Source: a virus. From it: a stretch of DNA of 45,363 bases. The translations under genes were made by a program, and so were the position numbers. Where the stretch lies: positions 1 to 45,363 of the IMG/VR virus record IMGVR_UViG_3300010885_074422. One strand, 5' to 3'. Below are positions 2,271 to 34,715 of the stretch, in pieces (within the stretch, counting starts at the first letter, position 1; each line of letters starts with the position of its first letter). The notes beneath the pieces are model-generated. The model was not told where the DNA came from. It did not search any database and worked only from the letters and a program-made list of their open reading frames with translations.

Positions 2271-3830
2271 ATGAAAGAATATATTGTTACGTTAAAAAAA
2301 GACGTTAATTATGATGAGTTTTATGATCAAATGGTCGAACAAAATAGTATAGCCCATATACCTTTCCGAGAGGTTGAGGTGGCTAATGAACGGCCACTTT
2401 CTCAGAGAAACACGCATTATTTTCTCACGGAACAAGAAGCAGAAATACTAAAGAGCGACGAAAGAGTTTTAGCTGTAGATATACCTCCAGATCAGCGCGA
2501 TGATATTGCTATAGGATTTAATATAACACAAAATTCGAATTTTTCAAAAAGCTCTTATTCTTCCGGTAACCAGATTAATTGGGGATTATTGAGATCGTCT
2601 AAATCTATAAATCTCTATCCGTCAGACACTACATCGCCAACGCTTTGTGCTTATTCCTATCATCTGGACGGGGAAGGGGTTGATGTAGTTATTCACGATT
2701 CTGGTGTGCAAATTGATCATCCAGAATTTACAGATTCTAAAGGTAATAGTAGAGTTAACAAAATAAACTGGTATACAGCTTCGGGGGTACCTGGTACCCA
2801 GGCCAGCGATTCACTTTTTTATAGAGATTACGATGGTCACGGGACACATGTAACTGGGATTGTTGCTGGAAAAAATTATGGCTGGGCAAAAAATGCTCAA
2901 ATATATGTACTTAAAGTGGGAGGGCTTGAGGGTAGCGGAGATGTAGGTAATGGTATAGATATTGTAAATTGCTTTGATGTGATTAAGGGCTGGCATTTAA
3001 ATAAACCAGTTGATTCAAGAACCGGAAAAAAAAGACCTACCGTTGTTAATATGAGTTGGGGGTATTCGAGTACATATACTTCCCTAACAGGCGGAAACTA
3101 TAGAGGGACAAACTGGACGGGTACAACACCTATTGCTAGCTATGGAATTATACTTTTTAATAGAGTCCCGGTAAGAGTTGAATCCGTAGATGTAGATTTA
3201 GAGGAATTAATTGATGCTGGAGTAACAGTGTGTATTGCATCGGGTAATAGTTCTTATAAGATTGATTTACAACAGGGTATAGATTACAACAATTACTTTG
3301 AAAAATCAGGAGGTAATAGAATTTATTATCACAGAGGATCTAGTCCGTATAGTACAAGAGCAATAGAAGTAGGTAATGTAAATAGTACAATGCTAGATTT
3401 TGGAGCAGGGCTTCAGGAATATAAAGCAAGCTCTAGTAATGGGGGACCAGGCGTAGATATATATGCACCGGGAGATTATATAAAAAGTGCTATGAGCGAT
3501 ATAAATGTCCATGGTTCCAGCAGTTCTACATACTTTCAAAATGCATCATATAAGCAAGCACTCTTAGGTGGAACAAGTATGGCTAGCCCGCAAGTTGCCG
3601 GTGTTTGTGCATTATATCTTCAGTTAAACCAAGATGCAACTCCTAGTCAAGTTAAGCAATTTATTATTCAAAATTCAGTTAAAGATTTACTATATGATAC
3701 AATAACATCATCGGACGATTATACCAATGCCTATTGTTTATTTGGTAGTAATAATAGGTATCTATATTTTCCATTTTGTAACGATGTAGGTTTACAATTT
3801 TCAAATAATTTAATTTACGGTAAATTTTAA
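2271..3830 (+). CDS. Subtilisin-like serine protease (peptidase family S8)
   Basis: Serine endopeptidase of the subtilase fold. The catalytic triad is visible: Asp143 in VIHDSGV, His190 in DGHGTHVTG and Ser436 in GGTSMASPQVAG. The oxyanion Asn is N326 in CIASGN. Residues 1-75 look like an inhibitor-type propeptide (MKEYIVTLKKDV start), so self-processing is probable. I see no signal peptide, which fits a virion-borne or cytoplasmic enzyme better than a secreted one. It sits 20 bp after the fibre gene on the same strand, so a role in fibre maturation or in cutting a host surface protein is possible; this is inferred from position only. Length (519 aa) is normal for an S8 enzyme with an insertion. 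Confidence 0.93.
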   Translation: MKEYIVTLKKDVNYDEFYDQMVEQNSIAHIPFREVEVANERPLSQRNTHYFLTEQEAEILKSDERVLAVDIPPDQRDDIAIGFNITQNSNFSKSSYSSGNQINWGLLRSSKSINLYPSDTTSPTLCAYSYHLDGEGVDVVIHDSGVQIDHPEFTDSKGNSRVNKINWYTASGVPGTQASDSLFYRDYDGHGTHVTGIVAGKNYGWAKNAQIYVLKVGGLEGSGDVGNGIDIVNCFDVIKGWHLNKPVDSRTGKKRPTVVNMSWGYSSTYTSLTGGNYRGTNWTGTTPIASYGIILFNRVPVRVESVDVDLEELIDAGVTVCIASGNSSYKIDLQQGIDYNNYFEKSGGNRIYYHRGSSPYSTRAIEVGNVNSTMLDFGAGLQEYKASSSNGGPGVDIYAPGDYIKSAMSDINVHGSSSSTYFQNASYKQALLGGTSMASPQVAGVCALYLQLNQDATPSQVKQFIIQNSVKDLLYDTITSSDDYTNAYCLFGSNNRYLYFPFCNDVGLQFSNNLIYGKF

Positions 3831-21032: not shown

Positions 21033-22814
21033 ATGGCCGTAGCTACTATTTCTGTTAATTTCGCAACAGTTGCCGATGTTCGTTCCGGAGCAAGCTTTAT
21101 TACAAGCATAAACCCACTTCAACTTAAGAACGCATTAATTAGTGGTGCTTCTTTTTATGATATAAACATTAAAGGCGCTACATTTAATAACGATGTAAAC
21201 ATAAACACAGCTAATTTATATGTTAACGATGATACTAAAGCTGTTACAATTGCTCCAATAACAACCATTAATAATTCAACTGATGCTATTACTAATTCTG
21301 TTGGTGCATTAGTTGTTAAAGGCGGTATCGGTGTATCTAAGAAAGTTAATATTGGTACAGAATTAACTGTAGGATCTACAGCAACTATTAGCGGTCTTGT
21401 AACAGCGAATAATGGAGTTACTATAAATAATGCAGCTCTTACAGTCAATAGTACTGCTACAATTACAGGTATCACGCAAATTTCTAGCAGTCAAGATTCT
21501 TCAGCATATAATAATGGTGCGCTAATCGTTGCCGGCGGTGTTGGAATTAATAAAGCCGTTTATACTAATTCAACTCTAAGAGTTGCAGGTATAACTACAC
21601 TTGCAAGCTCTGCTATATCTAGTAGTACATCAAGCGGTGCACTGGTTGTTACGGGGGGAGCTGGCATAGGGGGTACTGTTAATATTGGTGGCTCGACTAA
21701 CGTTGGTGGTATTGTCTCTATCACCGCCAATACGGTTTCAACTAATACAGGTAACGGTGCACTGGTTGTTACAGGTGGTGTTGGTATCGGTGGTGCACTT
21801 AATGTAAGTGGCTTCGGCGCATTTAACGGTATATTAACTATTAATAGTAGTGCCGCATCATCGAATACAACCTCAGGTGCACTTATCGTTGCTGGTGGTG
21901 CTGGTATCGGGGGTGCTGTTAATCTCGGATCTACTTTAAATGTTGCTGGTGTTACAACCATTACAAATGGAACAGCTTCAACTGGCGTAGGAAGCGGTGG
22001 GTTAGTTGTCTCCGGTGGTGTTGGTATTGGTGGAGCCGTCAATATAGGACAAACCACGACAATTGCAGGTATCACAACTATTACTAATAGTACCGCTTCG
22101 GCTAATTCTAGCAGCGGTGCCCTAGTTGTAACCGGTGGTGTAGGCGTTGGCGGAACAGTTAGTATTGCAAATAATCTCAATGCCTCTGGAACAGTTAGTT
22201 TCTCCAATGCAACAGCGTCTAGCAGTTCAAGTACAGGAGCTTTAATTGTAACTGGTGGTATAGGGGTTGGCGGTATTTCTTATTTTAGCAGCACACTTAA
22301 TACAGCCAGTATTAATACAACAGGTATTACAAGTTCCGGTATAGTTAGTATCACTAGCGCAACTGCAAGTTCAGGCACGGCTAGCGGTGCATTAGTTGTT
22401 ACAGGTGGTGTTGGTATTGGTGGCTCCGTTAACGTAGGTTCAAATCTTAGTGTCACTGGTACATTGTCTGTAGGAGGTTTAACTGTTAACGGTAATTTAC
22501 AGGTTAACGGGGCTATTAATGCGACTGGTGATATCACCGCTTATTCTGATAGTAGATTGAAAGATAATGTTAAAAGTATTTCTAATGCTTTGGATAAAGT
22601 TAATCAAATTTCTGGAGTGTCGTTTGATTGGAACGAAAAAGCTCTAAAAACCGGTCATGATGTAGGTGTTTTAGCTCAAGAAATTGAGAAAATATTGCCT
22701 GAAGCTGTAGCAACGATGAATGATGGTTACCTTGCTGTTAAATATGACAAAATTATACCTTTGCTTATCGAAGCAATAAAGGAACTACAGAAAAAAGTAG
22801 ATTTGAAAGGTTAA
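21033..22814 (+). CDS. Tail fibre with C-terminal S74 intramolecular chaperone
   Basis: 593 residues. The body has nine repeats of ~40 residues built on SGALVVTGGVGIGGAVNIG plus a strand like STLNVAGVTTIT, i.e. a long beta-helical trimeric shaft. The last ~95 residues are a peptidase S74/endosialidase chaperone domain: YSDSRLKDNVKSI with the Ser505/Lys510 pair, then VSFDWNEKA, HDVGVLAQEIEKILPEAV and YDKIIPLLIEAIKEL. This domain trimerises the fibre and then cuts itself off. The gene has a perfect late promoter motif. It is likely a long fibre or side fibre. Confidence 0.92.
   Translation: MAVATISVNFATVADVRSGASFITSINPLQLKNALISGASFYDINIKGATFNNDVNINTANLYVNDDTKAVTIAPITTINNSTDAITNSVGALVVKGGIGVSKKVNIGTELTVGSTATISGLVTANNGVTINNAALTVNSTATITGITQISSSQDSSAYNNGALIVAGGVGINKAVYTNSTLRVAGITTLASSAISSSTSSGALVVTGGAGIGGTVNIGGSTNVGGIVSITANTVSTNTGNGALVVTGGVGIGGALNVSGFGAFNGILTINSSAASSNTTSGALIVAGGAGIGGAVNLGSTLNVAGVTTITNGTASTGVGSGGLVVSGGVGIGGAVNIGQTTTIAGITTITNSTASANSSSGALVVTGGVGVGGTVSIANNLNASGTVSFSNATASSSSSTGALIVTGGIGVGGISYFSSTLNTASINTTGITSSGIVSITSATASSGTASGALVVTGGVGIGGSVNVGSNLSVTGTLSVGGLTVNGNLQVNGAINATGDITAYSDSRLKDNVKSISNALDKVNQISGVSFDWNEKALKTGHDVGVLAQEIEKILPEAVATMNDGYLAVKYDKIIPLLIEAIKELQKKVDLKG
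21276..22478 (+). repeat. Nine ~40-residue (about 120-bp) repeats in the fibre shaft
   Basis: Each unit contains GAL(V/I)V.GG.G(I/V)(G/N) followed by a strand. Units differ in most third codon positions, so the array is old compared with the 42-bp array at 1-294. All copies are in frame. Confidence 0.85.
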
Positions 22815-22817
22815 TTT

Positions 22818-23378
22818 ATGGCCAAACTTCAGAGTTCAGGCGCGATAAGTATATCACAGATCAATACCCTTAAGGGCAGGGGTACACAAACATCCTCCTT
22901 GGACAGCAGAACATTAGACTACATGGGTGATACTTCCCGAACGGGAACAGCTAGAGCGGATCTAGGTGTTTGTATGCCTAATATGGTTATTAATAAGAGC
23001 ACAGGTCAATTAGCTAGGAGCTCATCTAGCTGGGTGTATACAGGACCGCAAGCTGCCTGGAGACCTTATAGTTTTTCACAATTTTACGAGGCATATTCCG
23101 GTAGACCAACGCTAGCAGTAACAAAGATTAATCTCAATATTACAAATCAAGGTCAATTCCAGGTTGATTGTTCAGGTAGCGAGGCATATATCAACGTAAA
23201 TACACCTTATTCGGTTTACAGTTCGTCAACAGGCAGCTGGTCGGTCTGTACTGTTAACAACGGTACAAGAATAACATATACCGTATCTAACGGTACATAT
23301 ACTATTGCTGTACGTGACTTCTTAAACTGCGGAGCTAACTCAGAGTTTAAAGCATCTCCTAACCCAACATATCCATGA
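22818..23378 (+). CDS. Small fibre-associated virion protein
   Basis: 186 residues. The start SSGAISISQINTLKGRGTQT resembles the N-termini of small phage tail or baseplate proteins ('..I.ISQIN.ELG'). The end (about residues 100-186) is a beta domain with paired Cys. An AAAGG Shine-Dalgarno-like run precedes the ATG by about 7 nt. It is coupled to the next gene by an ATGA overlap. It could be the adhesin that tips the preceding fibre, since the S74 chaperone is removed; this is inference. Confidence 0.65.
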   Translation: MAKLQSSGAISISQINTLKGRGTQTSSLDSRTLDYMGDTSRTGTARADLGVCMPNMVINKSTGQLARSSSSWVYTGPQAAWRPYSFSQFYEAYSGRPTLAVTKINLNITNQGQFQVDCSGSEAYINVNTPYSVYSSSTGSWSVCTVNNGTRITYTVSNGTYTIAVRDFLNCGANSEFKASPNPTYP

Positions 23379-24628
23379 ACATTTACGAAGCCGCCCTTAA
23401 TAAAGTAATAGTAATTCTTGGAGTTACGCGTAATAAGGATCAATATTATTTTGTTGGTACTAGAAATAGAAGAATTGTCGAACTAACCCGAGGTAATTCT
23501 AATTTACTTAATAACATATCTTCAGATCGTGAATTTTTGGTGGATTTCTACGATTTAAAAAATGATAAAATTGAAACTATAGATTTTCAAAACGGTGAAG
23601 TCAATGAATTTACTTTACCGGGTCTGCCCTTTGAAATTGCACCACCAATGTTTCTTAATCCCAAGTGGGAAAACGAAACAAACAACAACACACTTATTGA
23701 ATTACAAAAAAATATTATTGATATTATTGTCAATAAAAAGACCATACCTGCTTTCAAAGAAAATAAAGTCAATTTTGCAAAGAAAAATCAAAGCGTTAAT
23801 TTTTTTAATGATGCAAAGATGTTTAGCGTAAGTTCTGACTATCTTTTAGATGAAAAGGATGAATTATATTATTTTAAGCTTACTTGCGATGGTGATCATT
23901 TTGAAAAATTTAACTCTGAATTTAAGGAATTTTACGAATTAATACATTTAAAGCCGTTGTTTGTTAAGATAGGGTATGATTTTAAATCAATTAATGAATT
24001 AAGAACAATAACTGCTAGCAAAAAGGATGAAATTAAGCAAAAATGGATAGATTATCTTGAAAATAAGAAAACAGAAAAACTAAGCGACTTAGCTCAACAA
24101 TTCGAGAGTACGAAGAATAGTATTGATGATGTTAATCTATTAAATGTTGCTACCTTTCAATATGAAGCGTTAAGTTTGAAAATACAAGCAGCAAATTATT
24201 CTAATATACTCAAAAATATTAATGATATGAAGATGTTTCTGAGATATTCTCCAGATTATATTGACAATAGCGACATTTTTACTACTATGGCACCGTTTAA
24301 TGATATGTGCTTAAAAATAATAGATAATCTAATTGTGAGTGGTGTTATTACAAACGACGAATATTTAAAAGAAATTTATGATTCAGGTGTAGACACCTTT
24401 TGCAATGCTCATCTACAAGAATTAAAAAATGTAAGAAAACAGCAAATAACAAATAGAAAGAATGAAATTTTGACAGAGCTTACCACTGATGAGCAAAACC
24501 AGGTAGCCCCCTTTCTCTCTGAGGATTCACTCTTCAATAAGCTAGATATACTCACACAATTTTATGATGTTCTTTCTTTCTGGCCCCCTGTATTAGGTAA
24601 AAGACCTGATTATGTCCTACCAAGCTAA
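23375..24628 (+). CDS. Unknown protein (417 aa) between fibre and glycosyltransferases
   Basis: The N-terminal 90 residues are beta-rich (ALNKVIVILGVTRNKDQYYF). The C-terminal half is helical and charged with possible coiled coils (about residues 200-270 and 345-375). No catalytic motif is seen. It overlaps both neighbours: its ATG sits on the stop of the small virion protein and its end contains the start of the glycosyltransferase gene. A tail-fibre assembly protein or a virion part would fit; this is inferred from position. Confidence 0.6.
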   Translation: MNIYEAALNKVIVILGVTRNKDQYYFVGTRNRRIVELTRGNSNLLNNISSDREFLVDFYDLKNDKIETIDFQNGEVNEFTLPGLPFEIAPPMFLNPKWENETNNNTLIELQKNIIDIIVNKKTIPAFKENKVNFAKKNQSVNFFNDAKMFSVSSDYLLDEKDELYYFKLTCDGDHFEKFNSEFKEFYELIHLKPLFVKIGYDFKSINELRTITASKKDEIKQKWIDYLENKKTEKLSDLAQQFESTKNSIDDVNLLNVATFQYEALSLKIQAANYSNILKNINDMKMFLRYSPDYIDNSDIFTTMAPFNDMCLKIIDNLIVSGVITNDEYLKEIYDSGVDTFCNAHLQELKNVRKQQITNRKNEILTELTTDEQNQVAPFLSEDSLFNKLDILTQFYDVLSFWPPVLGKRPDYVLPS

Positions 24629-25397
24629 TACTATTAGTAGTTTCTGGCACGGCCCATTATCAAAATTAGAACTTTTAACGCTAGAAAGTTTTATTGAAAA
24701 TGGTCATGAATTTGACCTATACATGTATGAAGCACCAAACATAAAAATTAATAAAAAGGTAAATCTAAAAGATGCAAATGAAATAGTACCAAGAAATAAG
24801 CTATTTACCTACAAAGGGTACGGGGACTGTAGAGTTGGAAGCCTTGGCGGATTTAGTGATATTTTTAGATACTATTTAATATATAAAAAAGGGGGATGGT
24901 ATGTTGATATGGATGTAACTTGTCTCAATAGTTTTAATGATATATCTGCTCCTTATGTCTTTAAAAAACATAAAACCTGTGGAACTGTGGCTAATGTTTT
25001 AAAATGTCCAAAAGAGTGTGATTTTTTAAAAGATTTAATAGTGGAAACAGAGCAAAGAGTTACCGAATTAAATAGTCACTGGGCATTACCATTGGAAATA
25101 CTCAATAACCATGTAAAAGATAAGGAACTTACTAATTATATTACAGAAAAAAATTTATTTGGTGATGATGATCCAGAGGAAATTAAAGCATTAAAATTTG
25201 GAAATTATTTTTTAATAAAAGACTGCCTTCCAAGCAATGCAATTCATTGGTGTAAAGAGTCTTCATATGGTACTTGGGATTTATCAATGAGATACATGAA
25301 TGCCTGGGGTGATCCCATACCCCTTACACTATATTATAATTTACTAGAAAAATTTGGCCTAATTTATAGCGACACTCGTAAACCGGTTAGTTTTTAA
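24612..25397 (+). CDS. Glycosyltransferase, DXD sugar-transferase (GT32-like)
   Basis: 261 residues. The hallmark segment is FSDIFRYYLIYKKGGWYVDM with DMD at 99-101, as in the Gly_transf_sug/GT32 family ('SD..RY..L...GG.Y.D.D'). The start ISSFWHGPLSKLELLTLESF also fits ('P..IW...LP.......SW...'). It should transfer a sugar from a nucleotide-sugar donor using a metal ion. It is the first gene of the surface-chemistry island and overlaps the gene before it by 17 bp. No signal peptide or membrane segment is seen. Confidence 0.82.
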   Translation: MSYQANTISSFWHGPLSKLELLTLESFIENGHEFDLYMYEAPNIKINKKVNLKDANEIVPRNKLFTYKGYGDCRVGSLGGFSDIFRYYLIYKKGGWYVDMDVTCLNSFNDISAPYVFKKHKTCGTVANVLKCPKECDFLKDLIVETEQRVTELNSHWALPLEILNNHVKDKELTNYITEKNLFGDDDPEEIKALKFGNYFLIKDCLPSNAIHWCKESSYGTWDLSMRYMNAWGDPIPLTLYYNLLEKFGLIYSDTRKPVSF

Positions 25398-25403
25398 TAA
25401 ATA
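25396..25403 (+). promoter_or_regulatory. Late promoter motif AATAAATA
   Basis: AATAAATA overlaps the TAA stop of the GT32-like gene and ends 7 nt before the ATG at 25411. Confidence 0.6.
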
Positions 25404-25410
25404 TATACAT

Positions 25411-26367
25411 ATGGCACAAGAGTATTATCATATAGGTGTTGCTTGCGATAGAGGATATGAAACCTATGTATACAATCTAATAAAAACAAGTATCAAATTT
25501 TATACAGGTACGACACCTCTACTCTTTGAAGTATTAACTAATGATTTTGATTATAGTTTTAGTAAGGTTACTTCCCTGGATACAGGTGATCATAAAGTAG
25601 TTCTTACTTATGCAGATCAAGCCTATCATGATAAGTATCAAATTCCGTTTGATTTTAAGAAAAAATATTTACTACCTGATGATAAAATTAATGCTCTTAA
25701 GAAATTGAATGTAGATCTAAAGGAAGAAAATACGCTTAAAGCGCTAAGATTTATGGGCAATGTTACCTCTCCATATAAAAAGTACGTAATATTTGACGCC
25801 GATATGTTAGTTGCAGGTGATCTAAAAGAAATTTTTGAATTTGATTTAAAAGATAATTACGTAGCTTCTTGTAAGTCATATTTTTACTCAAGTAATGATC
25901 AAACAGAAGCACAATTTAACAATAAGGTTGAAGAAGGTCTAGTTGCAAATAGACTAGCTATACCGTTCTCCCTCTTCAATGTACCAAATATGCAAAAAGA
26001 CATGATTTGCCATAAAATTCTTGAAGTTGCCCAACAGCGGCTTGACGAAAACATAGATTTATTATTTAACGGTTATAGTAATTATATAGGATCAGCTGTT
26101 TTCTTTGGAAAAATATTTTCAGAATTAGTAGGCAGTAGGATAGACTTTCTTCCTAGCACCTGGGCCTATGACGCACATAGCCTAAGAGATGATAGATTGA
26201 ATGATGGAGGTATAATAGATTACTTCAAGTCAAACGCCCCAAAGCTTTATCATTTTAGTTCTAGAAATGCAGACAATTCAACAGATACAAGTCTACTAGC
26301 TGCGGAGAACGTTTTTATTAAAAAAGACTACTATAACACAGTGCTAGATAATCTTCTTAATGATTGA
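25411..26367 (+). CDS. Glycosyltransferase, GT8-like (GT-A fold)
   Basis: 318 residues. The metal-binding DXD is in KKYVIFDADMLVAGDLKEIF (Asp129/Asp131), the standard GT8 layout ('K.IYLDAD.LV..DL..L'). The downstream segment PKLYHFSSRNADNS resembles the family's final His-containing block. It has its own late promoter motif. Donor and acceptor are unknown. The 3' end overlaps the next small gene by 8 bp. Confidence 0.8.
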   Translation: MAQEYYHIGVACDRGYETYVYNLIKTSIKFYTGTTPLLFEVLTNDFDYSFSKVTSLDTGDHKVVLTYADQAYHDKYQIPFDFKKKYLLPDDKINALKKLNVDLKEENTLKALRFMGNVTSPYKKYVIFDADMLVAGDLKEIFEFDLKDNYVASCKSYFYSSNDQTEAQFNNKVEEGLVANRLAIPFSLFNVPNMQKDMICHKILEVAQQRLDENIDLLFNGYSNYIGSAVFFGKIFSELVGSRIDFLPSTWAYDAHSLRDDRLNDGGIIDYFKSNAPKLYHFSSRNADNSTDTSLLAAENVFIKKDYYNTVLDNLLND

Positions 26368-26566
26368 TAGAGAAGTAGACATTTTAAATTTTTTTAATTT
26401 TGACAAAAAATGCCCTGACACAATTATGAATTGTGAGGAATTACGCAAAGAGTTTGATGTAAGAAACGAAAGACTTAAAAAATTTAATGTCTGTTATGAT
26501 TGCTCTTTAAACTCGCTAAAATCCTTTTTTGTATCTAAAATAAAATTTATTGGCATTACGAATTAG
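26360..26566 (+). CDS. Small Cys-containing protein, possible zinc ribbon
   Basis: 68 residues with four Cys in two clusters (KKCPDTIMNCEEL and VCYDCSLNSLK). The second, CxxC followed by LNSLKSFFVSKI, resembles small phage zinc-binding proteins. It is translationally coupled to the GT8-like gene. Function unknown. Confidence 0.55.
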   Translation: MIDREVDILNFFNFDKKCPDTIMNCEELRKEFDVRNERLKKFNVCYDCSLNSLKSFFVSKIKFIGITN

Positions 26567-26586
26567 AGGCATTTTTTTTAAACGTA

Positions 26587-26594
26587 TATAAATA
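26587..26594 (+). promoter_or_regulatory. Late promoter motif TATAAATA before desaturase 1
   Basis: Perfect TATAAATA ending 5 nt before the ATG at 26600. A weak stem (ATAAA 26588-26592 with TTTAT 26597-26601) would pair the promoter bases with the first two bases of the start codon. Confidence 0.7.
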
Positions 26595-26599
26595 TCTTT

Positions 26600-27646
26600 A
26601 TGAGCTTAAAGGCTGACGACAAATTTATTGGTGATGATCATTATAAGCATCCTTTTTTTCTGTCCTCAAGTATAATGGATCAAAACTGGTTTAAAAAAAA
26701 GATAAAGGAATTAAACAGACCAAACGTTTTTGCAAGTTTAGGTCAAATTTTATTTGAACATTCTATTATTTTCTTAACAATACTTCTTAATGCTCTTTAT
26801 CCCAACCCATGGCTATATATTCCCTCTGTTATGATTATAGGAAGCAGGTTTCATGCTTTATTTATCGTCATGCACGACGGCGCACATTATAGAGTATCAA
26901 AGATAAGGTGGTTAAACGAATTCATTACTCAAGTACTTATTTGTATACCTTTATTCGCAAATCTAAGAGACTGGCGCAGAGCACACTTTGCCCATCATAG
27001 AAATCCTAATACTAATGAAGACCCTGACCTTGTAATACGGTTTGGTAATCCAGAATACATCTTGCCGAAGAAAGTAAAGGACTTTATAGTAGTATTAACT
27101 TCTCATATGTTTGGATTAAAGATGATTAAGACGCTTTTCTCACCATATATGAAAATTAAAGATAAACTATTTTACTTTGGCACATCATTTATGAGCCCGG
27201 TAATGGCAGCCCCGCCAGTAGATAAATCACATATTGCCTACTACAGTAAAATAGAAAAATTTATCATAATTATGACGTACTTTATATGTTTAGGGGTAAT
27301 TGTATATTTAAAAGTATTTACAATGTTTTTATTATTTTGGGTCTTACCGATGATTTTATGGACACATTTTATTTCAAAGTTAAGATCTTTTTCCGAACAC
27401 GGCGGTCTAGATAATTCATCATTATATCAAAGAAGTAGAACTCTATATACAACTTTACTCGATAAGACAATCCTAGGGTATGCTTGGAATGTGGGGTTAC
27501 ATTTGGATCATCATCTATTTCCAGGAGTTCCATCCTATAGACTGAAAAAACTGCATAACATAATTAAACAATTATCACCATATAAGGAGCATGCACATAT
27601 AACAAAACATGGCATCTTTGGCGTTATAAAGGAATGTACAATATGA
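26600..27646 (+). CDS. Membrane fatty-acid desaturase-superfamily enzyme (copy 1)
   Basis: 348 residues. All three His boxes are present: HDGAH at 92-96, HFAHH at 129-133 and HLDHH at 301-305, the last followed by LFPGVPSYRLKKLH, as in family PF00487 di-iron desaturases and hydroxylases. Hydrophobic spans near residues 53-90, 107-120 and 220-250 fit the usual four-helix membrane topology. It should introduce a double bond or hydroxyl into a lipid with O2 and a reductant. It has its own late promoter motif and is followed by a paralogue. The precise substrate cannot be told. Confidence 0.88.
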   Translation: MSLKADDKFIGDDHYKHPFFLSSSIMDQNWFKKKIKELNRPNVFASLGQILFEHSIIFLTILLNALYPNPWLYIPSVMIIGSRFHALFIVMHDGAHYRVSKIRWLNEFITQVLICIPLFANLRDWRRAHFAHHRNPNTNEDPDLVIRFGNPEYILPKKVKDFIVVLTSHMFGLKMIKTLFSPYMKIKDKLFYFGTSFMSPVMAAPPVDKSHIAYYSKIEKFIIIMTYFICLGVIVYLKVFTMFLLFWVLPMILWTHFISKLRSFSEHGGLDNSSLYQRSRTLYTTLLDKTILGYAWNVGLHLDHHLFPGVPSYRLKKLHNIIKQLSPYKEHAHITKHGIFGVIKECTI

Positions 27647-28674
27647 ATGAGGATATAAAATCTCGTAGCGATTTTTATACAGGTAAAATAACAAGCGAAA
27701 TTAACAATACAATATCAAATGAACAAGTTGACTTAAAGTCCTTATCTAAACCTAATACATGTGCTAGTTTAGGTCAAATTTTTTTAGAATATATTGGTAT
27801 TGCTACTGCTATTATTTTATGTATAAAATTTTGGTCTATTCCTCTGTATGTATTAACGGTAATGTTTATAGCATGTAGACAGCATGCCCTAGGCGTTATA
27901 ATGCATGACGGGGTTCATTATAAGATAGCAAAGAATAAACTATTAAATGATATTATTACAGAGTACTTAATCGCTATTCCAATATTTACGCCTATGCTAG
28001 ATTGGCGAAGAGCACATTTTACACACCATCGTAATCCTAATACAGAAGAAGACCCTGATTGGGTAATAAAGCTAAATAATCCTGAGTGGAAATTTCCAAA
28101 ATCTAAGTTGGGCTTCATATCAACGGTCTTGAGATATAGCTGCGGTATTTTTATCATAGGTATTTTCTTTAGTAGGAGATTAAAATGGCAACAAAAGCTA
28201 AAATATTTTTGTAAAGCGTTCTTAGGTACCCGTCCAAGCCCAAAATTACCAACAGAAAAGCCAATGAAACCAAAAAGACATAATTACATTATAAATACCA
28301 TCTTGTATTTGACTATATTATCCTTAATAATATATTTTGGATTTTTCAAATTGTTCATATTATACTATATAGTACCGGCATTTATGTGGGCACCTCTACT
28401 TACAAGAATAAGATCAATAGCTGAACATTTTGGCGTTGAAAATGATAATGTGTACGATAAGAGTCGCACCATGTATCCTAATATTATTGATAAACTATTT
28501 CTAGGGGCCAGTTGGAATATAAATTATCATCTGGATCATCATCTATATCCTAGCGTGCCATCCTACAGGCTAAAAAAACTGCATAACAAGATAAAGGATT
28601 TACCAGAGTATAGAGCAAGAGCACATATCACAACAAATGGGTTTTATGGAGTATTTAGAGAATGTACAGGCTAA
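27643..28674 (+). CDS. Membrane fatty-acid desaturase-superfamily enzyme (copy 2)
   Basis: 343 residues from the ATG at 27643, chosen because it overlaps the preceding TGA (ATGA) and has AAAGGA about 9 nt before it; ATG 27634 is in frame but has no room for a ribosome site. His boxes: HDGVH at 88-92, HFTHH at 125-129 and HLDHH at 296-300. It is clearly a paralogue of copy 1 (PN..ASLGQI, DWRRAHF.HHRNPNT.EDPD, HLDHHL.P.VPSYRLKKLHN). All metal ligands are intact in both, so both are probably active. Divergence in the loops suggests different lipid substrates. Confidence 0.87.
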   Translation: MNEDIKSRSDFYTGKITSEINNTISNEQVDLKSLSKPNTCASLGQIFLEYIGIATAIILCIKFWSIPLYVLTVMFIACRQHALGVIMHDGVHYKIAKNKLLNDIITEYLIAIPIFTPMLDWRRAHFTHHRNPNTEEDPDWVIKLNNPEWKFPKSKLGFISTVLRYSCGIFIIGIFFSRRLKWQQKLKYFCKAFLGTRPSPKLPTEKPMKPKRHNYIINTILYLTILSLIIYFGFFKLFILYYIVPAFMWAPLLTRIRSIAEHFGVENDNVYDKSRTMYPNIIDKLFLGASWNINYHLDHHLYPSVPSYRLKKLHNKIKDLPEYRARAHITTNGFYGVFRECTG

Positions 28675-29159
28675 CTCCTCCTCCGCCTAAAGACAGTGAA
28701 ATACCAGATGTTTATACTACAGACGTTATTTCTGAAGAAGATTATGAATTTACATACAATCTGATATGTAGACGGCTAAAAGATCCAAAATCTTATATAA
28801 AATACATAACAAACCCTGAAATCCCCACGCTAGATCAGCATAAAGATTATGTAAAAAATAATTTTTATTTGTACAGGATAGGCTACGTAAATGATGTAAG
28901 GATAGGCTGTGGCTGTATAGATAAAAAATATTTTCTCGGAATGTATTATGATAATAATGCAATAAAATCGTTACTTAGATCTGGTATTAGGCTGGATATT
29001 GCCGATACTAACCAAAAGTATTTTGATATTTTAGTTTCAAATTTTCCAAGAGGTACTAAAATTTTTAGCTATGTTAGTCCACATCATACTTTATCATTAA
29101 GAGGCGCTAGCAAACTTATGGAACAAGTAGCAGTATTGTATGGATATGAACGTGAATAA
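28662..29159 (+). CDS. GNAT-like N-acetyltransferase
   Basis: 165 residues. The IPTLDQHKDYVKNNFYLYRI stretch and the later 'G.CGCIDKKYFLGM' and 'FPRGTKIFSYVSPHHTLSLRG' follow the GNAT order seen in sugar N-acetyltransferases of the FlmH/RimJ type ('P...QH..W....Y...Y.I', 'I.P.N..S...F.K.GF'). The acetyl-CoA loop is poorly conserved, so activity is uncertain. It overlaps genes on both sides. Next to an aminotransferase and a deacetylase it may acetylate an amino sugar; that is inference. Confidence 0.58.
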   Translation: MYRLTPPPPKDSEIPDVYTTDVISEEDYEFTYNLICRRLKDPKSYIKYITNPEIPTLDQHKDYVKNNFYLYRIGYVNDVRIGCGCIDKKYFLGMYYDNNAIKSLLRSGIRLDIADTNQKYFDILVSNFPRGTKIFSYVSPHHTLSLRGASKLMEQVAVLYGYERE

Positions 29160-30024
29160 AACAGTTACATATAAAATTAATAATAAACAAGTTAGTTTTG
29201 ATGTTACTGCAGAAAGAATTGATTATGGCAAATACGAAAATATTTTTCTTAGCGATGATAATCTCATTCAACGCGCTAGTTGGTTTGCAAACGGTTATAC
29301 GATAGAGCCGTTTTTAACTGAAGAAAAATATACATTATTATATGAATTTATCGTTGATTTATTTAAAAAGAATCTATCTAATTTAACTACAAAAAATTTA
29401 AACGAGTTTACTTTAGAGAAATATCATGAATATGTAAATGATGATACGCATATTAAATTTATTAAGGCTGTAACAGCAACAAGTAAAGGCGCTAACGGTA
29501 TAAAGCTTTCCTGCTTACCGTTTAGCTATAGAGACATTGATCACAATATAAGTGAGACATGCAACAGGGATATTAGTTGTAAAAACTTATTTACAGATTG
29601 CTTTTGGCTTAGAGTTGTAAGACCGAATGCTAAAGGAGATAATAATCCCCCTCATAAGGATGGCTATCTTCGTAGAAACAGGTGTATGGTCAATATGTAC
29701 GTTGGTGTTGCTGGTAGTAACGAGCATAGTTCACTGCCATTTGTACCAAATAGCCATTTACTTTCAGAAAAATTTATTGAACGTACTTATGGACAGACAC
29801 TTGTAAATGGTAAAAAATTTACTAATCCTGCTGTAACAGGGTTATATAGGAAGGAAATAGAAATGATAACACCTAATCCTGGCAGAAACCAGGCTTTAAT
29901 TTTTACACCCTATATGATTCACGGTGGTGGAAAAAATTTAAATTCTTCCTTAACACGTATTTCTATAGAAATGAGATTTAAGCCAAGGCGACTAGAAAAA
30001 TATTTTGGTTTCTATAATAACTAG
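29140..30024 (+). CDS. 2-oxoglutarate/Fe(II) oxygenase, phytanoyl-CoA dioxygenase-like
   Basis: 294 residues. The iron triad is visible: His172 and Asp174 in PPHKDGYLRRN and His261 in TPYMIHGGGKN; Arg273 in LTRISIEMRF is the usual 2-oxoglutarate anchor. Similar PhyH-type enzymes are common in marine T4-like phages. They hydroxylate an unactivated carbon using O2 and 2-oxoglutarate. The start could be ATG 29140 or 29146, both inside the end of the acetyltransferase gene. The target may be a sugar, lipid or cofactor of the island. Confidence 0.78.
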   Translation: MDMNVNKTVTYKINNKQVSFDVTAERIDYGKYENIFLSDDNLIQRASWFANGYTIEPFLTEEKYTLLYEFIVDLFKKNLSNLTTKNLNEFTLEKYHEYVNDDTHIKFIKAVTATSKGANGIKLSCLPFSYRDIDHNISETCNRDISCKNLFTDCFWLRVVRPNAKGDNNPPHKDGYLRRNRCMVNMYVGVAGSNEHSSLPFVPNSHLLSEKFIERTYGQTLVNGKKFTNPAVTGLYRKEIEMITPNPGRNQALIFTPYMIHGGGKNLNSSLTRISIEMRFKPRRLEKYFGFYNN

Positions 30025-30054
30025 ATTTTTTTTTAATTAATAATAGTATATATT

Positions 30055-30678
30055 ATGCCATTTGATGTTGTAGATAAATTTGAGCAGACTATCGCCGAGT
30101 ACGCAGGTGCACCCTATGGTGTAGCAGTCGATAGCTGTACAAATGCATTGTTCTTAAGCTTAATGTACAGAAAAATAAAAGGTAAAGAAGTTACAATACC
30201 ATCTAAGACATATATTTCTGTTCCTTGCTCCATAGTTCACGCCGGCGGACTAGTTAAATTCAGTAATAATGCTTGGTCCGGCTGTTACGAGCTAGAACCA
30301 TTCAAAATCTACGATAGTGCTAAAAGGTTTAAGGAGGGTATGTTTATTAAGAACTCTCTATATTGCTTGTCATTTCATATAAAAAAGCATATACCCATTG
30401 GCCGTGGCGGTATGATACTTACTGATGATATTAATGCTCGTGATTGGCTAAGATTAGCACGTTATAATGGTAGATTACCCCAGCCATATACTAACGAGGG
30501 AGTTTTTAAAATGGTTGGCTGGAATTTTTATATGCCACCAGAATCAGCTGCACGCGGATTATGGTTATTCAATACTACAGCGACAAGAAATACAGAAGAC
30601 CTGCCAGAGGATTATCCAGATCTATCCAAATATCAATTTAATGATAGTGGTTCAGAATTAACTCAACAGACTGGTTAA
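30055..30678 (+). CDS. Short DegT/DnrJ/EryC1-type PLP aminotransferase-like protein
   Basis: 207 residues. The N-terminal FEQTIAEYAGAPYGVAVDSC followed by TNALFLSL is the DegT start ('FE..FA.Y.G....VAV.SGT.AL.L.L'). The PLP lysine segment SFHIKKHIPIGRGGMILTDD is intact. The family is normally ~370 residues; here the C-terminal domain is nearly absent, giving a mini-protein with a short hydrophilic tail (DSGSELTQQTG). It could be an active compact version forming dimers or a derivative with another role. DegT enzymes make amino sugars. The end overlaps the opposite-strand gene by 21 bp. Confidence 0.75.
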   Translation: MPFDVVDKFEQTIAEYAGAPYGVAVDSCTNALFLSLMYRKIKGKEVTIPSKTYISVPCSIVHAGGLVKFSNNAWSGCYELEPFKIYDSAKRFKEGMFIKNSLYCLSFHIKKHIPIGRGGMILTDDINARDWLRLARYNGRLPQPYTNEGVFKMVGWNFYMPPESAARGLWLFNTTATRNTEDLPEDYPDLSKYQFNDSGSELTQQTG

Positions 30679-31458
30679 AATAGTATTGTATTTAAATAGT
30701 AGTCTGTATAAAAACTTTGCATCTGTATTATCAATTACATGTTTACAGTATTTTTTTTCTAAATATTCATCTTTATCTTGGTCTAGACCAATATTATGCC
30801 AAGGCTTTATTCCTCCAGCAAAGTGATAAATTACAGCACTATCAAAATTACTTTCATTCATAAAGGGTGTACTTAAAAAATACTTTGAGGGAAGCAGTTT
30901 GTATGTGTCTTTAAAATATAAATTAAAGGTAGATTGATTACCTAACCATTTTCTTGATTTCATCACTTCAAGCATTTTTGCAATTGTATGCTCTGTACAA
31001 AATTTTCTATCTATAACCATAACACCACAATTAAAACCATGTTCAAAACCTAAAGGTGCTCGTTCTTCACTGGCCATATGGTGATAACACGCTAGAAAAT
31101 CACCCGGCGTATTAAAAATTTCTGAAATATTGCCAGTACAAAGCATATCTACATCAAAAAAAATTATTTTTTCGTAGTCTGTTAAGGTAAAAATTTGTAA
31201 CCTATTAGCAGGGTTAACATTCCATTGCCTAGCTCCTGAAAATGTAATATTGCTAAATCTAGCCTTATCTATAGGTAAAAATTTAAAATACTTGTAGACG
31301 GATAATAATTCTGATCTATCCTTATCTGAAAACATCTCTTCTTCAAAAATAATATAGTCATAATTTATATCAGGGTTATTTTTTATTATACTCTTTATGA
31401 AAACTTTTAAGCCTAAAATATAGTCTTTTGTTAGTGTTGAAACAAAAGCAATATTCAT
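30658..31458 (-). CDS. Glycosyltransferase, GT8-like
   Basis: 266 residues. DXD at 102-104 in YEKIIFFDVDMLCTGNISEI; then HGFNCGVMVIDRKF and WLGNQSTFNLYF, the GT8 acceptor-side blocks ('FN.GVM..N', 'DQ..LN..F'). The penultimate part VIYHFAGGIKPWHN has the His of the final motif. This is the clearest glycogenin/GT8-type protein in the window. It is on the opposite strand to the rest of the island and convergent with the aminotransferase. Acceptor unknown. Confidence 0.85.
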   Translation of the reverse strand: MNIAFVSTLTKDYILGLKVFIKSIIKNNPDINYDYIIFEEEMFSDKDRSELLSVYKYFKFLPIDKARFSNITFSGARQWNVNPANRLQIFTLTDYEKIIFFDVDMLCTGNISEIFNTPGDFLACYHHMASEERAPLGFEHGFNCGVMVIDRKFCTEHTIAKMLEVMKSRKWLGNQSTFNLYFKDTYKLLPSKYFLSTPFMNESNFDSAVIYHFAGGIKPWHNIGLDQDKDEYLEKKYCKHVIDNTDAKFLYRLLFKYNTILTSLLS

Positions 31459-31522
31459 ATGGTATTTAAAATAAATTTAAATATTTCCAGGTCTGGAATT
31501 TATAACTTATTATAATATAATA

Positions 31523-32182
31523 ATGTATATGGGTAATTATGTCCTTGTCGTCGTACCTCATGCTGACGATGAAGTATTGATGTGCGGGGGCAGTATTGCT
31601 AAGCATCTAGAGAGTGAAGACAGGGTCGATGTTGTTATACTTCAAAAAAATAGAAATAGCCGTACACAGAATCAGCTTGTGTGTGCAAATGCTGCAAAAA
31701 AGGTATTAAATTACACCAACTTACACCTACTTAATATTGATAATAGCCTATTTTCATCAAATTTTGTACATGTTAAGGATTCATTAGAAAATTTTTTAAC
31801 TGATGTAGATACACCGGACATTGTATATACAGTTTCACCGTTTGATAATCACCAAGACCATCAAATGCTATATAAAGTTATATCTGTTGTATTCAGAATA
31901 CATGGCGATAGGCCAGCAAAAAAAATATTATGCGGGGAAACTATTTCTTCTACTGATAGATCTTTTAAGTATTTCTCTTCCTTTAATCCCAATTGTTACA
32001 ATACACTGGTTGAGCGCCATATAGATTTAAAGGTCGAAGCTCTAAAACAATATAAGGATGAGATGTTTTCTATGCCGCATCCTCGCTCTGAAGAAAGTGT
32101 TCGCTCTCTAGCTAAAGTAAGAGGTATTGAATGTAATCATTATTTTGCAGAAGCATTTTGCTGTGTGAGGGACATAACATGA
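31523..32182 (+). CDS. PIG-L/LmbE-family deacetylase
   Basis: 219 residues. Zinc-site motifs: VVPHADDEVLMCGGSIAKH (His13, Asp15, Asp16) and FDNHQDHQML (His110, His113). The family removes acetyl groups from N-acetylglucosamine-type substrates (PIG-L, MshB, BshB). Length is normal. The gap 31459-31522 before it is A/T-rich with a TATAAT at 31511-31516 but no convincing -35 box. It is coupled to the epimerase by an ATGA overlap, so the two probably act on the same sugar. Confidence 0.85.
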   Translation: MYMGNYVLVVVPHADDEVLMCGGSIAKHLESEDRVDVVILQKNRNSRTQNQLVCANAAKKVLNYTNLHLLNIDNSLFSSNFVHVKDSLENFLTDVDTPDIVYTVSPFDNHQDHQMLYKVISVVFRIHGDRPAKKILCGETISSTDRSFKYFSSFNPNCYNTLVERHIDLKVEALKQYKDEMFSMPHPRSEESVRSLAKVRGIECNHYFAEAFCCVRDIT

Positions 32183-33042
32183 AAATTTTATTAACAGGCG
32201 GTTGCGGGTTCATAGGCGGCAATGTAAAAGAATATTTGCAGAGTAAAGGGTTTGATATTATTAATTACGACTTAAAGCAAGGTTTAAATCTCCTGGATAC
32301 CTTAGCCTTAGAAAGGCATATTATCAAGGCTGATATGGTGTTGCATATAGCTGCACAAGCTAATTTAAACGAGATGACAGACCTAGATGGTGCTAGAAAA
32401 GGAGTTGAGTTTAATGTTTACGGTACACATAATGTCTGTTTTTTGTGTGCCAAGCATAAGAAAAAGCTTATATATGCATCAACTGTATGTGTTTACGGTA
32501 ACATGAAAGGCAAATCTATAGCTGACGGTGCTGTTAACCCTTCTGAGCTATATGCGTATAGTAAGTACGCCGGAGAACAACTTGTCAAGGGATATTCATC
32601 AAATTTTGGACTGGAGTATATTATTTTAAGATTTGCTACAACTTACGGGCCAGGCATGAGGGATGTTCTCGGTACATCTATTTTTATAAAGCAGGCTAAA
32701 GATAGTAAAGATATTACAGTCCACGGTAATGGTAAGCAAACAAGAACCCTTACACATGTGAGAGACATCGTCTATGGCTGTTTTAACGCTATTACTATGT
32801 TTGATAAATGTAAAAATAATACCTTTAATATCTCTCAAAGTGAACGTGTTTCTGCATTAAAAATGGCTAAAGATATCAAGAAAATTACTAACAGTAAATC
32901 TAGGATAGTCTTTGTAGAACAAAGACAGAATCAAACTTTTGACGAAGATATATGTCTTAAGAAGACGGCCAAATTACTTAAATGGAAGCCTAAAATCTCA
33001 TGGCTGGTAGGAATCAAAGATACAATAGATAATTTAGAATAA
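32179..33042 (+). CDS. NAD-dependent sugar epimerase/dehydratase (extended SDR)
   Basis: 287 residues from ATG 32179, which overlaps the previous TGA (the frame is also open to a TTG at 32158). Rossmann motif GGCGFIGGNV, the AAQANLN region, and the catalytic YAYSKYAGEQL (YxxxK). RFATTYGPGMR is the usual substrate-side block. These enzymes epimerise or dehydrate nucleotide-linked sugars. Together with DegT, GNAT, PIG-L and glycosyltransferases it gives most of a sugar-tailoring pathway. Confidence 0.87.
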   Translation: MKILLTGGCGFIGGNVKEYLQSKGFDIINYDLKQGLNLLDTLALERHIIKADMVLHIAAQANLNEMTDLDGARKGVEFNVYGTHNVCFLCAKHKKKLIYASTVCVYGNMKGKSIADGAVNPSELYAYSKYAGEQLVKGYSSNFGLEYIILRFATTYGPGMRDVLGTSIFIKQAKDSKDITVHGNGKQTRTLTHVRDIVYGCFNAITMFDKCKNNTFNISQSERVSALKMAKDIKKITNSKSRIVFVEQRQNQTFDEDICLKKTAKLLKWKPKISWLVGIKDTIDNLE

Positions 33043-33052: not shown

Positions 33053-33433
33053 ATGAAGCATCGTTGGCAGCCCAGGATTGATCAATGGATTCCTGAAAGC
33101 TTTGCCGGTAATACTGAGCGTGTACCGGATGCTCAGAAGTTTGTACCGCCCCCTCATTTAAATGATTATGTCGGGACACAATCTTATGCACCAGGCGAAG
33201 GTGAAGAGATGAAAGTTAATATCTCTGGATTTGGAAAGCTTTCGATTAAAGAGATAAAGAACAAAATTCACGATCTCTTAAAGGGTGTATTAGATTTAGT
33301 AGATAGTGATAAGGTTTCGGATATAGAGCAATTGGAGCATCGTCTATTCAAGGCTCCAGAATTACAAAATATTGTTAAAGAGTATATAGCAAATATAAAG
33401 AAATTGAAAGCTGATAGCTCCGGATTAACCTAA
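33053..33433 (+). CDS. Probable late phage protein, unknown
   Basis: 126 residues. The first 55 are Pro/Trp-rich and extended (RWQPRIDQWIPESFAGNTER); the rest is helical (KEIKNKIHDLLKGVLDLVDS) with a possible coiled coil. Late promoter motif ahead. Its TAA shares one base with the ATG of the next gene (TAATG). A virion or assembly protein is possible. Family not recognised. Confidence 0.55.
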   Translation: MKHRWQPRIDQWIPESFAGNTERVPDAQKFVPPPHLNDYVGTQSYAPGEGEEMKVNISGFGKLSIKEIKNKIHDLLKGVLDLVDSDKVSDIEQLEHRLFKAPELQNIVKEYIANIKKLKADSSGLT

Positions 33434-33615
33434 TGACCGCAAAAGTCAAGCAAAAAATTACTGCTGATTATGTGCTTGACTTATACTTGGAAAGCAAATC
33501 ACGTAAAGGTAAGGAGTCTTCAGTCCTGTTTAACGCTGCTTGTACTTTAAGCCAGCATCTTAATGAATGGTTAGTTGTACCTGAAGAGATCTGCAAAATA
33601 AAAAAGAAATCTTGA
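33433..33615 (+). CDS. Small helical protein, unknown
   Basis: 60 residues, basic, mostly helical (ADYVLDLYLESKSRKGKESS). It is coupled to the preceding gene by a one-base stop/start overlap, which is the main reason to call it. No recognisable motif. Confidence 0.5.
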   Translation: MTAKVKQKITADYVLDLYLESKSRKGKESSVLFNAACTLSQHLNEWLVVPEEICKIKKKS

Positions 33616-33645
33616 ATTTATTTAATATTCATTTATTATCATTTA

Positions 33646-34101
33646 ATGGTAATTGATAAAATTATTGTACCTTGGGAAGAAATACACACAACAGTTGAAT
33701 CAATTCATTCTACTACAGAAGCAAATGACGTAGGCGATATTGCCATTATTGGTATTAGTCGCGGCGGGTTAATTCCTGCCGTATTACTATCCCAATTAAA
33801 AAACAATAGCTCTGTATATACAGTAGGTATAAAAAGCTATTCTGGTAATAAGAGAAATAAAGATTTTGTCTATCAAACCCCTTCAATAGAAACACTTAAA
33901 GAATATAAAACACTATATTTAGTTGATGATATTTGTGATACAGGCTTAACCTTTAAACATTTGACAGAAAAATATTTTACCGAGTTAAATCTAAAAACAA
34001 TTTCACTTTTTTACAGGTCAAACAGTCTATATTCGCCAGATTATTATGGTACTAAGCTTTTGGACGAATCTTGGGTTGTTTTTCCATGGGAAAAAGAATA
34101 A
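33646..34101 (+). CDS. Phosphoribosyltransferase (xanthine/guanine type)
   Basis: 151 residues. The PRPP loop is YLVDDICDTGLTFK (Asp94, Asp95, Asp98-Thr-Gly). GISRGGLIPAVLLSQ and the C-terminal WVVFPWEKE are typical of Gpt/xanthine-type purine phosphoribosyltransferases. It would salvage a purine base onto PRPP, supporting nucleotide supply along with NrdAB and the deaminases. A Rho-independent-type terminator follows at 34120-34142. Confidence 0.83.
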   Translation: MVIDKIIVPWEEIHTTVESIHSTTEANDVGDIAIIGISRGGLIPAVLLSQLKNNSSVYTVGIKSYSGNKRNKDFVYQTPSIETLKEYKTLYLVDDICDTGLTFKHLTEKYFTELNLKTISLFYRSNSLYSPDYYGTKLLDESWVVFPWEKE

Positions 34102-34119
34102 ATATAAAATCTATTAACC

Positions 34120-34142
34120 AGGCTTTTCAGCCTATTTTTTTT
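34120..34142 (+). terminator. Intrinsic terminator directly before the wall-enzyme start codon
   Basis: Stem AGGCT/AGCCT with loop TTTC (34120-34133) followed after one A by eight T residues (34135-34142). The T run touches the ATG at 34143. It lies just downstream of the phosphoribosyltransferase stop (34101) and of a late motif AATAAATA (34097-34104). Confidence 0.65.
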
Positions 34143-34715
34143 ATGAAAATAAACAACAAAATACACAAGCTAGGAACACTACTCGTCATATTATTTCTGT
34201 CGACAATATCTTTTTGTGTCACAGAATATAAGGAAAGGCAAAAGAATATATCTGATCTAAGAGCAGAGTTGAAGTCACTTAACTCTGTAGAAGAAAAAAA
34301 AGCTGCTAAAAATATAATTATAAAGAATGAAGGTGTTAAATTCAACGATACCTTTATACCTAAAACTAATAGTAAAGATTTTAAAGTACTTACAGTTAGA
34401 TTAACTGTGTATTGGGCACGTGGCGGTGATACTGATAGAGATAGTGCCAGAAAAAAAAGTTCTACAGGTTATACCTTAAAACAGGGTGAATCTATAGCTG
34501 TAGATCCACGCATTATCCCTTATACTAAAGAGGTAATTATACCTAATGTAGGGTTAGTTAAGGCCGTTGATACAGGTACAGCAGTCAAAGAGAAGAAAGC
34601 TTCAAACGGAAAACTACCAGTTATAGATATATTCTTCGAAAATAAAAAAGATGCAATGTCTTTTGCCTATAATAACCCTAAAGTAGTTAAGGTAGCTGTA
34701 TTAAATAACATGTGA
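34143..34715 (+). CDS. 3D-domain (double-psi barrel) cell-wall protein with N-terminal anchor
   Basis: 190 residues from ATG 34143; the frame is open to ATG 34071, but that start would put 24 residues, read through a terminator hairpin, in front of a good signal sequence. The N-terminus MKINNKIHKLGTLLVILFLS is a signal anchor or signal peptide. A short coiled coil (residues 28-58) follows. Then comes a 3D domain with its three Asp: Asp121 (SIAVDPRIIP), Asp143 (VKAVDTGTAV) and Asp162 (VIDIFFENK). 3D domains occur in lytic transglycosylases (MltA, YocH). With the next gene it forms a peptidoglycan-attack pair. Confidence 0.75.
   Translation: MKINNKIHKLGTLLVILFLSTISFCVTEYKERQKNISDLRAELKSLNSVEEKKAAKNIIIKNEGVKFNDTFIPKTNSKDFKVLTVRLTVYWARGGDTDRDSARKKSSTGYTLKQGESIAVDPRIIPYTKEVIIPNVGLVKAVDTGTAVKEKKASNGKLPVIDIFFENKKDAMSFAYNNPKVVKVAVLNNM

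Follow-up and report, generated by a model that had tools for sequence, protein, structure and literature searches.

A 45,363-nucleotide stretch of viral DNA (IMG/VR record IMGVR_UViG_3300010885_074422, positions 1 to 45,363, hereafter the window) carries an island of enzyme genes at positions 24612-33042, in the tail-fibre region of the phage. We read this island as a variable, late sugar-tailoring cassette that makes an N-acyl amino-sugar glycan on a surface protein of the virion, an interpretation in which our confidence is about evenly balanced. The sequence-only reading of the window had described the same interval as sugar tailoring combined with lipid desaturation. All of the genes it named are intact and lie within the borders it gave, the open reading frames (ORFs) tile the interval, and the gene order, the overlaps and the E-values far exceed what chance would produce.

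The phage is T4-like and of freshwater origin. The window encodes a T4-type portal protein (phrog_213, 1e-98), tail-fibre-like proteins and an endolysin (PHROG matches), and genes reading as ribonucleotide reductase. Compared with cyanophages, the portal reaches at best ~30-32% identity and one long structural protein ~39%. These low identities mark the phage as a member of a T4-like lineage without close isolates. An IMG/VR search with the portal yielded 33 relatives, the longest of 229,717 bases.

The island occupies a conserved site with exchangeable contents. In 15 relative contigs (L numbers below denote individual contigs) the stretch following the fibre gene was read; some are near-copies, leaving about nine distinct cassettes. 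Between the tail-fibre gene and the block of p33053 and phosphoribosyltransferase genes, the relatives hold 5-17 kb of differing enzymes, and the right edge is a p33053 homologue followed by the phosphoribosyltransferase in the contigs that reach that far. A GNAT-fold gene stands directly before a half-size DegT-family aminotransferase (mini-DegT) in six cassettes besides that of the window (L046, L047, L049, L057, L151 and L152), with a PhyH-like oxygenase gene close by; the window order is GNAT, PhyH, mini-DegT. Gly_transf_sug, GT8 and PIG-L genes follow GNAT/mini-DegT in most of these six, and at least one GT8 gene is present in most cassettes. Other contents include radical SAM/SPASM proteins, an Asp/Asn hydroxylase, full-length DegT, asparagine-synthase and carbamoyltransferase families, a methyltransferase, UDP-glucose dehydrogenase and, in one cassette, an Ig_7 domain. 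Since the GNAT/mini-DegT/PhyH module recurs while the other contents differ, the core is conserved and the remaining genes are swapped. PhyH relatives in IMG/VR are found mainly on contigs of the same phage group, and a nucleotide search of the island against the phage collection gave no match. Contig L011, nearly identical and from a different metagenome, stops at window position 24628, the stop codon of the gene preceding the island. As assemblies end where populations hold different inserts, this break suggests strain-level variation at the left edge.

The recurrence of the module in six other cassettes supports the earlier proposals that the island builds and transfers an amino sugar and that it is linked to the phage surface or host recognition. 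The sequence-only reading had named scattered, non-conserved occurrence as evidence against its island, and had suggested searching other phage contigs for the same set. The site and the core are conserved and the core module is found in those six cassettes, but the desaturase pair of the window occurs in none of them.

The cassette and its flanks are organised as follows, with the best family match in brackets.

21033..22814, plus strand: tail-fibre-like gene with an S74-type C-terminal region, the left anchor (PHROG tail families, best 9.5e-32)
22818..24628, plus strand: two fibre-associated genes of 186 and 417 amino acids, left flank (weak homologues at the same place in L053 and L055)
24612..25397, plus strand: Gly_transf_sug-type glycosyltransferase with a DxD motif (DMD) (PF04488 3.5e-9; homologues 42-51% identical in relatives' cassettes)
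25411..26367, plus strand: GT8-like glycosyltransferase (GT8a) with a DxD motif (PF01501 2.9e-5, slightly under the cut-off)
26360..26566, plus strand: conserved cassette ORF of 68 amino acids (homologues 33-50% identical in L055, L151 and L152; no match in a Pfam search)
26587..26594, plus strand: TATAAATA, putative T4-type late promoter element, 13 nt before the FAD1 ATG
26600..27646, plus strand: FA_desaturase-family membrane protein 1 (FAD1) (PF00487 1.3e-31; HDGAH, HFAHH, HLDHH)
27634..28674, plus strand: FA_desaturase-family membrane protein 2 (FAD2) (PF00487 3.1e-39; HDGVH, HFTHH, HLDHH)
28662..29159, plus strand: GNAT-fold protein, likely an N-acyltransferase (predicted fold; no sequence match)
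29140..30024, plus strand: PhyH-like 2-oxoglutarate-Fe(II) oxygenase (PF05721 0.0021, 18.8 bits, below the cut-off of 22)
30055..30678, plus strand: mini-DegT aminotransferase, 207 amino acids (PF01041 3.1e-20, 73.2 bits against a cut-off of 19.8)
30658..31458, minus strand: GT8 glycosyltransferase with a DxD motif (PF01501 4e-25)
31523..32182, plus strand: PIG-L-type de-N-acetylase (PF02585 9.6e-17, 62.1 bits against a cut-off of 28.2; HADDE and HQDH)
32179..33042, plus strand: SDR nucleotide-sugar epimerase (PF01370 8.7e-38; phrog_540 4e-55)
33053..34715, plus strand: right anchor comprising p33053, a small ORF, the phosphoribosyltransferase and p34071 (order kept in relatives spanning the site)

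The mini-DegT protein retains the DegT active site in about half the usual length. The Asp of the pyridoxal phosphate site (D87) and the catalytic Lys (K111) are invariant across 28 aligned mini-DegT homologues. With 207 amino acids against 360-400 for the DegT/DnrJ/EryC1/StrS family, the protein falls short of full length; compared with the structures 9bgp and 3bn1, it lacks a central block and the C-terminal part beyond chain residue ~265. Thus the earlier label of aminotransferase holds for the family but not for a protein of normal length. The AlphaFold2 model has a pLDDT of 93.7 and a pTM of 0.91, and its best Foldseek match is GDP-perosamine synthase; TMt values of 0.38-0.40 agree with a fold short of full length. 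Such proteins are common in viruses: a scan of IMG/VR returned at least 600 viral stretches, with 596 confirmed among the matches listed, and nearly all of those in the 80 stretches fetched (L059-L138) are 195-226 amino acids long. Of 79 mini-DegT loci, 55 have an N-acyl- or formyltransferase gene no more than 4 kb away, further bearing out the amino-sugar proposal, and in 21 a GNAT gene abuts or overlaps mini-DegT. By association, these neighbourhoods point strongly to an N-acyl amino sugar as the product. A literature search turned up no description of a half-size DegT in phages, an absence that is no proof in itself, and the family is apparently both widespread in phages and undescribed.

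The acetyltransferase assigned by the sequence-only reading to 28662-29159 stands as a fold and not as a sequence family. Its AlphaFold2 model (mean pLDDT 80.7) matches GNAT structures in Foldseek with a best E-value of 2.7e-4 and TM scores of 0.5-0.6, RimL and PseH being among the matches, and the canonical R/Q-x-x-G-x-G/A acyl-coenzyme A (CoA) loop is absent when the sequence is read. Together with its neighbour it resembles the sugar 4-aminotransferase/N-acyltransferase pairs of perosamine, viosamine and PseC/PseH synthesis, which share the DegT fold and residues and the neighbouring GNAT enzyme. The window pair differs in its aminotransferase of ~205 residues and in the missing CoA loop.

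Active-site motifs are preserved in the other tailoring enzymes. In the alignment of the phage group, the PhyH-like protein has an invariant iron triad (H172-x-D174...H261) and distal R273. The zinc motifs HADDE and HQDH of PIG-L are intact, and homologues 34-43% identical occur in other cassettes. L055 encodes a homologue of the SDR protein at 55% identity. Among phage families the protein matches phrog_540 best, a family of nucleotide-sugar epimerases. Its YxxxK motif (YAYSK) is present and the Asp-Glu pair typical of 4,6-dehydratases is missing (STVCVYG), in line with the earlier label of epimerase; a role as 4,6-dehydratase was rejected on this ground. Its start is more likely the ATG at 32179, which overlaps PIG-L by 4 nt, than the TTG at 32158.

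In the order of steps that we infer, the aminotransferase and the SDR epimerase would place an amino group onto a nucleotide-linked keto sugar, and the GNAT-fold enzyme would acylate the resulting amine. The PhyH and the two desaturase-family enzymes may hydroxylate or desaturate the acyl or amino-acyl decoration of the sugar, PIG-L would remove an N-acetyl group, and attachment of the product would fall to the DxD transferases. The likeliest target would be a co-expressed virion surface protein, with the adjacent tail fibre as first candidate.

The part of the desaturase-family enzymes in this scheme competes with a different proposal, in which they remodel host membrane lipids (fluidity, cold adaptation) independently of the sugar genes, a role suggested for the desaturases of cyanophages and cryopeg phages. 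FAD1 and FAD2 contain three His boxes (HDGxH, HFxHH, HLDHH) and hydrophobic segments like acyl-lipid and acyl-CoA desaturases. Viral lipid desaturases exist (PMC7300359), and freshwater pelagimyophages carry a desaturase (PMC7029224). The window pair shares the membrane FA_desaturase family with the former and with the cyanophage enzymes cited there; those of the PMC7300359 type model on stearoyl-CoA desaturase, whereas FAD1 and FAD2 show no sequence similarity to solved desaturases in the PDB and score only 29-35 bits against 500 for the lipid desaturase models DesA/DesB. Their closest curated full-length family is that of the membrane enzyme GntB, a free L-arginine hydroxylase (NF041365; PMC10367076). 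At 97.5 bits (FAD1) and 117.1 bits (FAD2) against a cut-off of 380 they are not members, and this proximity shows family position only, not substrate.

The two proteins are 41% identical and form a sister pair in the tree (support 100/99), and therefore look like a tandem duplication; beyond this pair and L166 the tree is poorly supported. Desaturase homologues are absent from 17 relatives, and the same model does find bacterial homologues. IMG/VR scans with a single sequence and with an alignment gave no confirmed relative, although the pattern method can miss distant ones. The only matches in the phage collection, labelled 'Acinetobacter phage MD-2021a', were rejected, their neighbouring genes being those of a bacterial chromosome; in the GenBank entry of that name, CAKLQH020000002.1 (L009), bacterial chromosomal genes flank the desaturase. 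The nearest bacterial homologues belong to Bacteroidota and are rare (6/296 genomes at 1e-15), and their neighbours (L003-L006, L166) gave no functional clue.

The genomic context speaks more strongly on the role of the pair than the family scores. FAD1-FAD2, FAD2-GNAT and GNAT-PhyH overlap by 13, 13 and 20 nt, respectively. In two relatives, a Trp_halogenase-family flavin enzyme (L049 7292-8827 and L057 3744-5279; PF04820 3e-87) lies upstream of GNAT and mini-DegT, in the slot held by the desaturases in the window. The GxGxxG motif is present in these proteins and WxWxI is absent. Given the overlapping operon with GNAT and PhyH, the single TATAAATA element and the halogenase-family enzyme in the slot, we think that the desaturase pair tailors the product of the cassette. 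Lipid desaturation, put forward earlier as a second function of the island, accordingly loses ground. We consider it unlikely, and late N-acyl amino-sugar glycan synthesis is the stronger reading, because the pair overlaps the GNAT/PhyH genes, follows a late motif and occupies the halogenase-family slot. Tentatively, this slot may be a swappable oxidative position, filled by the desaturase pair or a Trp-halogenase-family enzyme, that feeds the common mini-DegT/acyltransferase core and thereby varies the virion glycan.

The timing of expression is suggested by a motif surveyed in the window and its relatives (L014-L058 and G011). Besides the site before FAD1, TATAAATA lies 14 nt before the ATG of the tail-fibre gene and AATAAATA lies 15 nt before that of GT8a; p33053 and NrdB are also preceded by the motif. 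Across the phage group, ATAAATA is found 10-19 nt before the start in 45/305 genes, compared with ~2 per 5-nt bin elsewhere. Over the whole window TATAAATA occurs no more often than expected; its enrichment is confined to its position relative to starts. In the 229-kb relative 33/243 genes carry the motif, and seven of ten tested had a family match: six were head or tail proteins and one was PhoH. We read ATAAATA/TATAAATA as a putative T4-type late promoter which, lying so close to the start codon, would leave the mRNA nearly leaderless. The cassette is thus probably expressed late. Shine-Dalgarno sequences precede 14/263 genes of the group, versus 16/263 in a control stretch. Their lack, together with the Bacteroidota homologues and the Ig_7 domain in one cassette, makes a host among the Bacteroidota likely.

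Several points weigh against glycan synthesis for the virion. No glycosylated product is known, and the cassette, which lacks a 4,6-dehydratase, encodes no complete pathway. The CoA loop is missing from the GNAT-fold protein, and the motif, which also precedes NrdB and PhoH, is not confined to virion genes. To our knowledge, there is no precedent for desaturase-family enzymes acting on a sugar-linked group, and GT8 enzymes typically act on lipopolysaccharide (LPS). The cassette could instead modify host LPS or capsule late in infection, sparing progeny from loss on debris or excluding competitor phages, which we regard as possible but doubtful. GT8 and Gly_transf_sug enzymes are LPS-type transferases, the minus-strand GT8 finds its best NCBIfam match in an LPS galactosyltransferase, and the authors of a pelagimyophage study proposed host O-chain modification for GT8-rich host recognition clusters (PMC7029224). 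However, no flippase, polymerase, ligase or undecaprenyl-phosphate sugar transferase was recognised among the island proteins with Pfam and NCBIfam, and the GtrA flippase and GtrB bactoprenol glucosyltransferase families of gtrABC-type seroconversion cassettes were not found among them. The adjacency to the tail fibre and the late motifs suit virion modification at least equally well, and for these reasons we favour the virion as the likelier target.

Glycosyltransferases in a T4-like phage also bring to mind modification of the T-even kind, in which the enzymes would glycosylate bases of the phage DNA. DNA figures among several targets considered for the core glycosyltransferases of a large aquatic phage lineage (PMC12619734). 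Here, nine relatives, among them the 229-kb record, have no thymidylate-synthase-family gene; controls were positive, although fragments can miss genes. The phage would therefore have no T4-type base hydroxymethylase. Moreover, the cassette lies in the tail-fibre region and its contents change from one relative to another, and we judge DNA as the target to be very improbable.

Two further genes of this phage group were noted. In the window, a subtilisin-like protease gene (2271-3830) adjoins a fibre-like gene and is 60-62% conserved in relatives (L024, L032-L035). The relative G011 (3300020578_000006) encodes a 1052-amino-acid protein at 203915-207073, with a signal-peptide-like start and a late-promoter motif upstream; its N-terminus resembles alpha-amylase by eye.

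The cassette is of a general kind already known, the host recognition cluster of pelagimyophages and cyanomyophages (PMC7029224), with which it shares a hypervariable island, tail fibres, GT8 and T4-like structural synteny. Those clusters lie between VrlC and gp14 and average 44.6 or 34.2 kb, while the region here covers 5-17 kb from the fibre gene to the phosphoribosyltransferase block and, unlike them, has a core of GNAT, mini-DegT and PhyH that recurs, and a slot for desaturase- or halogenase-family enzymes. The glycan clusters of Flavobacterium phage immuto and Synechococcus phage S-SCSM2R likewise place mini-DegT among glycosyltransferases and acyltransferase-like or 2-oxoglutarate oxygenase genes, but contain amidinotransferase, radical SAM and full-length DegT genes instead of desaturase-family genes. 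New in the window are the gene combination, the desaturase-like slot and the DegT family of ~205 residues.

Two parts of this system stand out as the most interesting: the oxidative slot, which is swappable, and the half-size DegT family with its wide distribution. The half-size DegT would be a minimal sugar aminotransferase, of enzymological interest, and phage desaturases labelled as lipid enzymes may merit re-examination. If the product is placed on the virion, phages would vary their own surface chemistry by swapping biosynthetic cargo beside a tail-fibre gene, and the role of the 'LPS genes' in aquatic T4-like phages would become directly testable.

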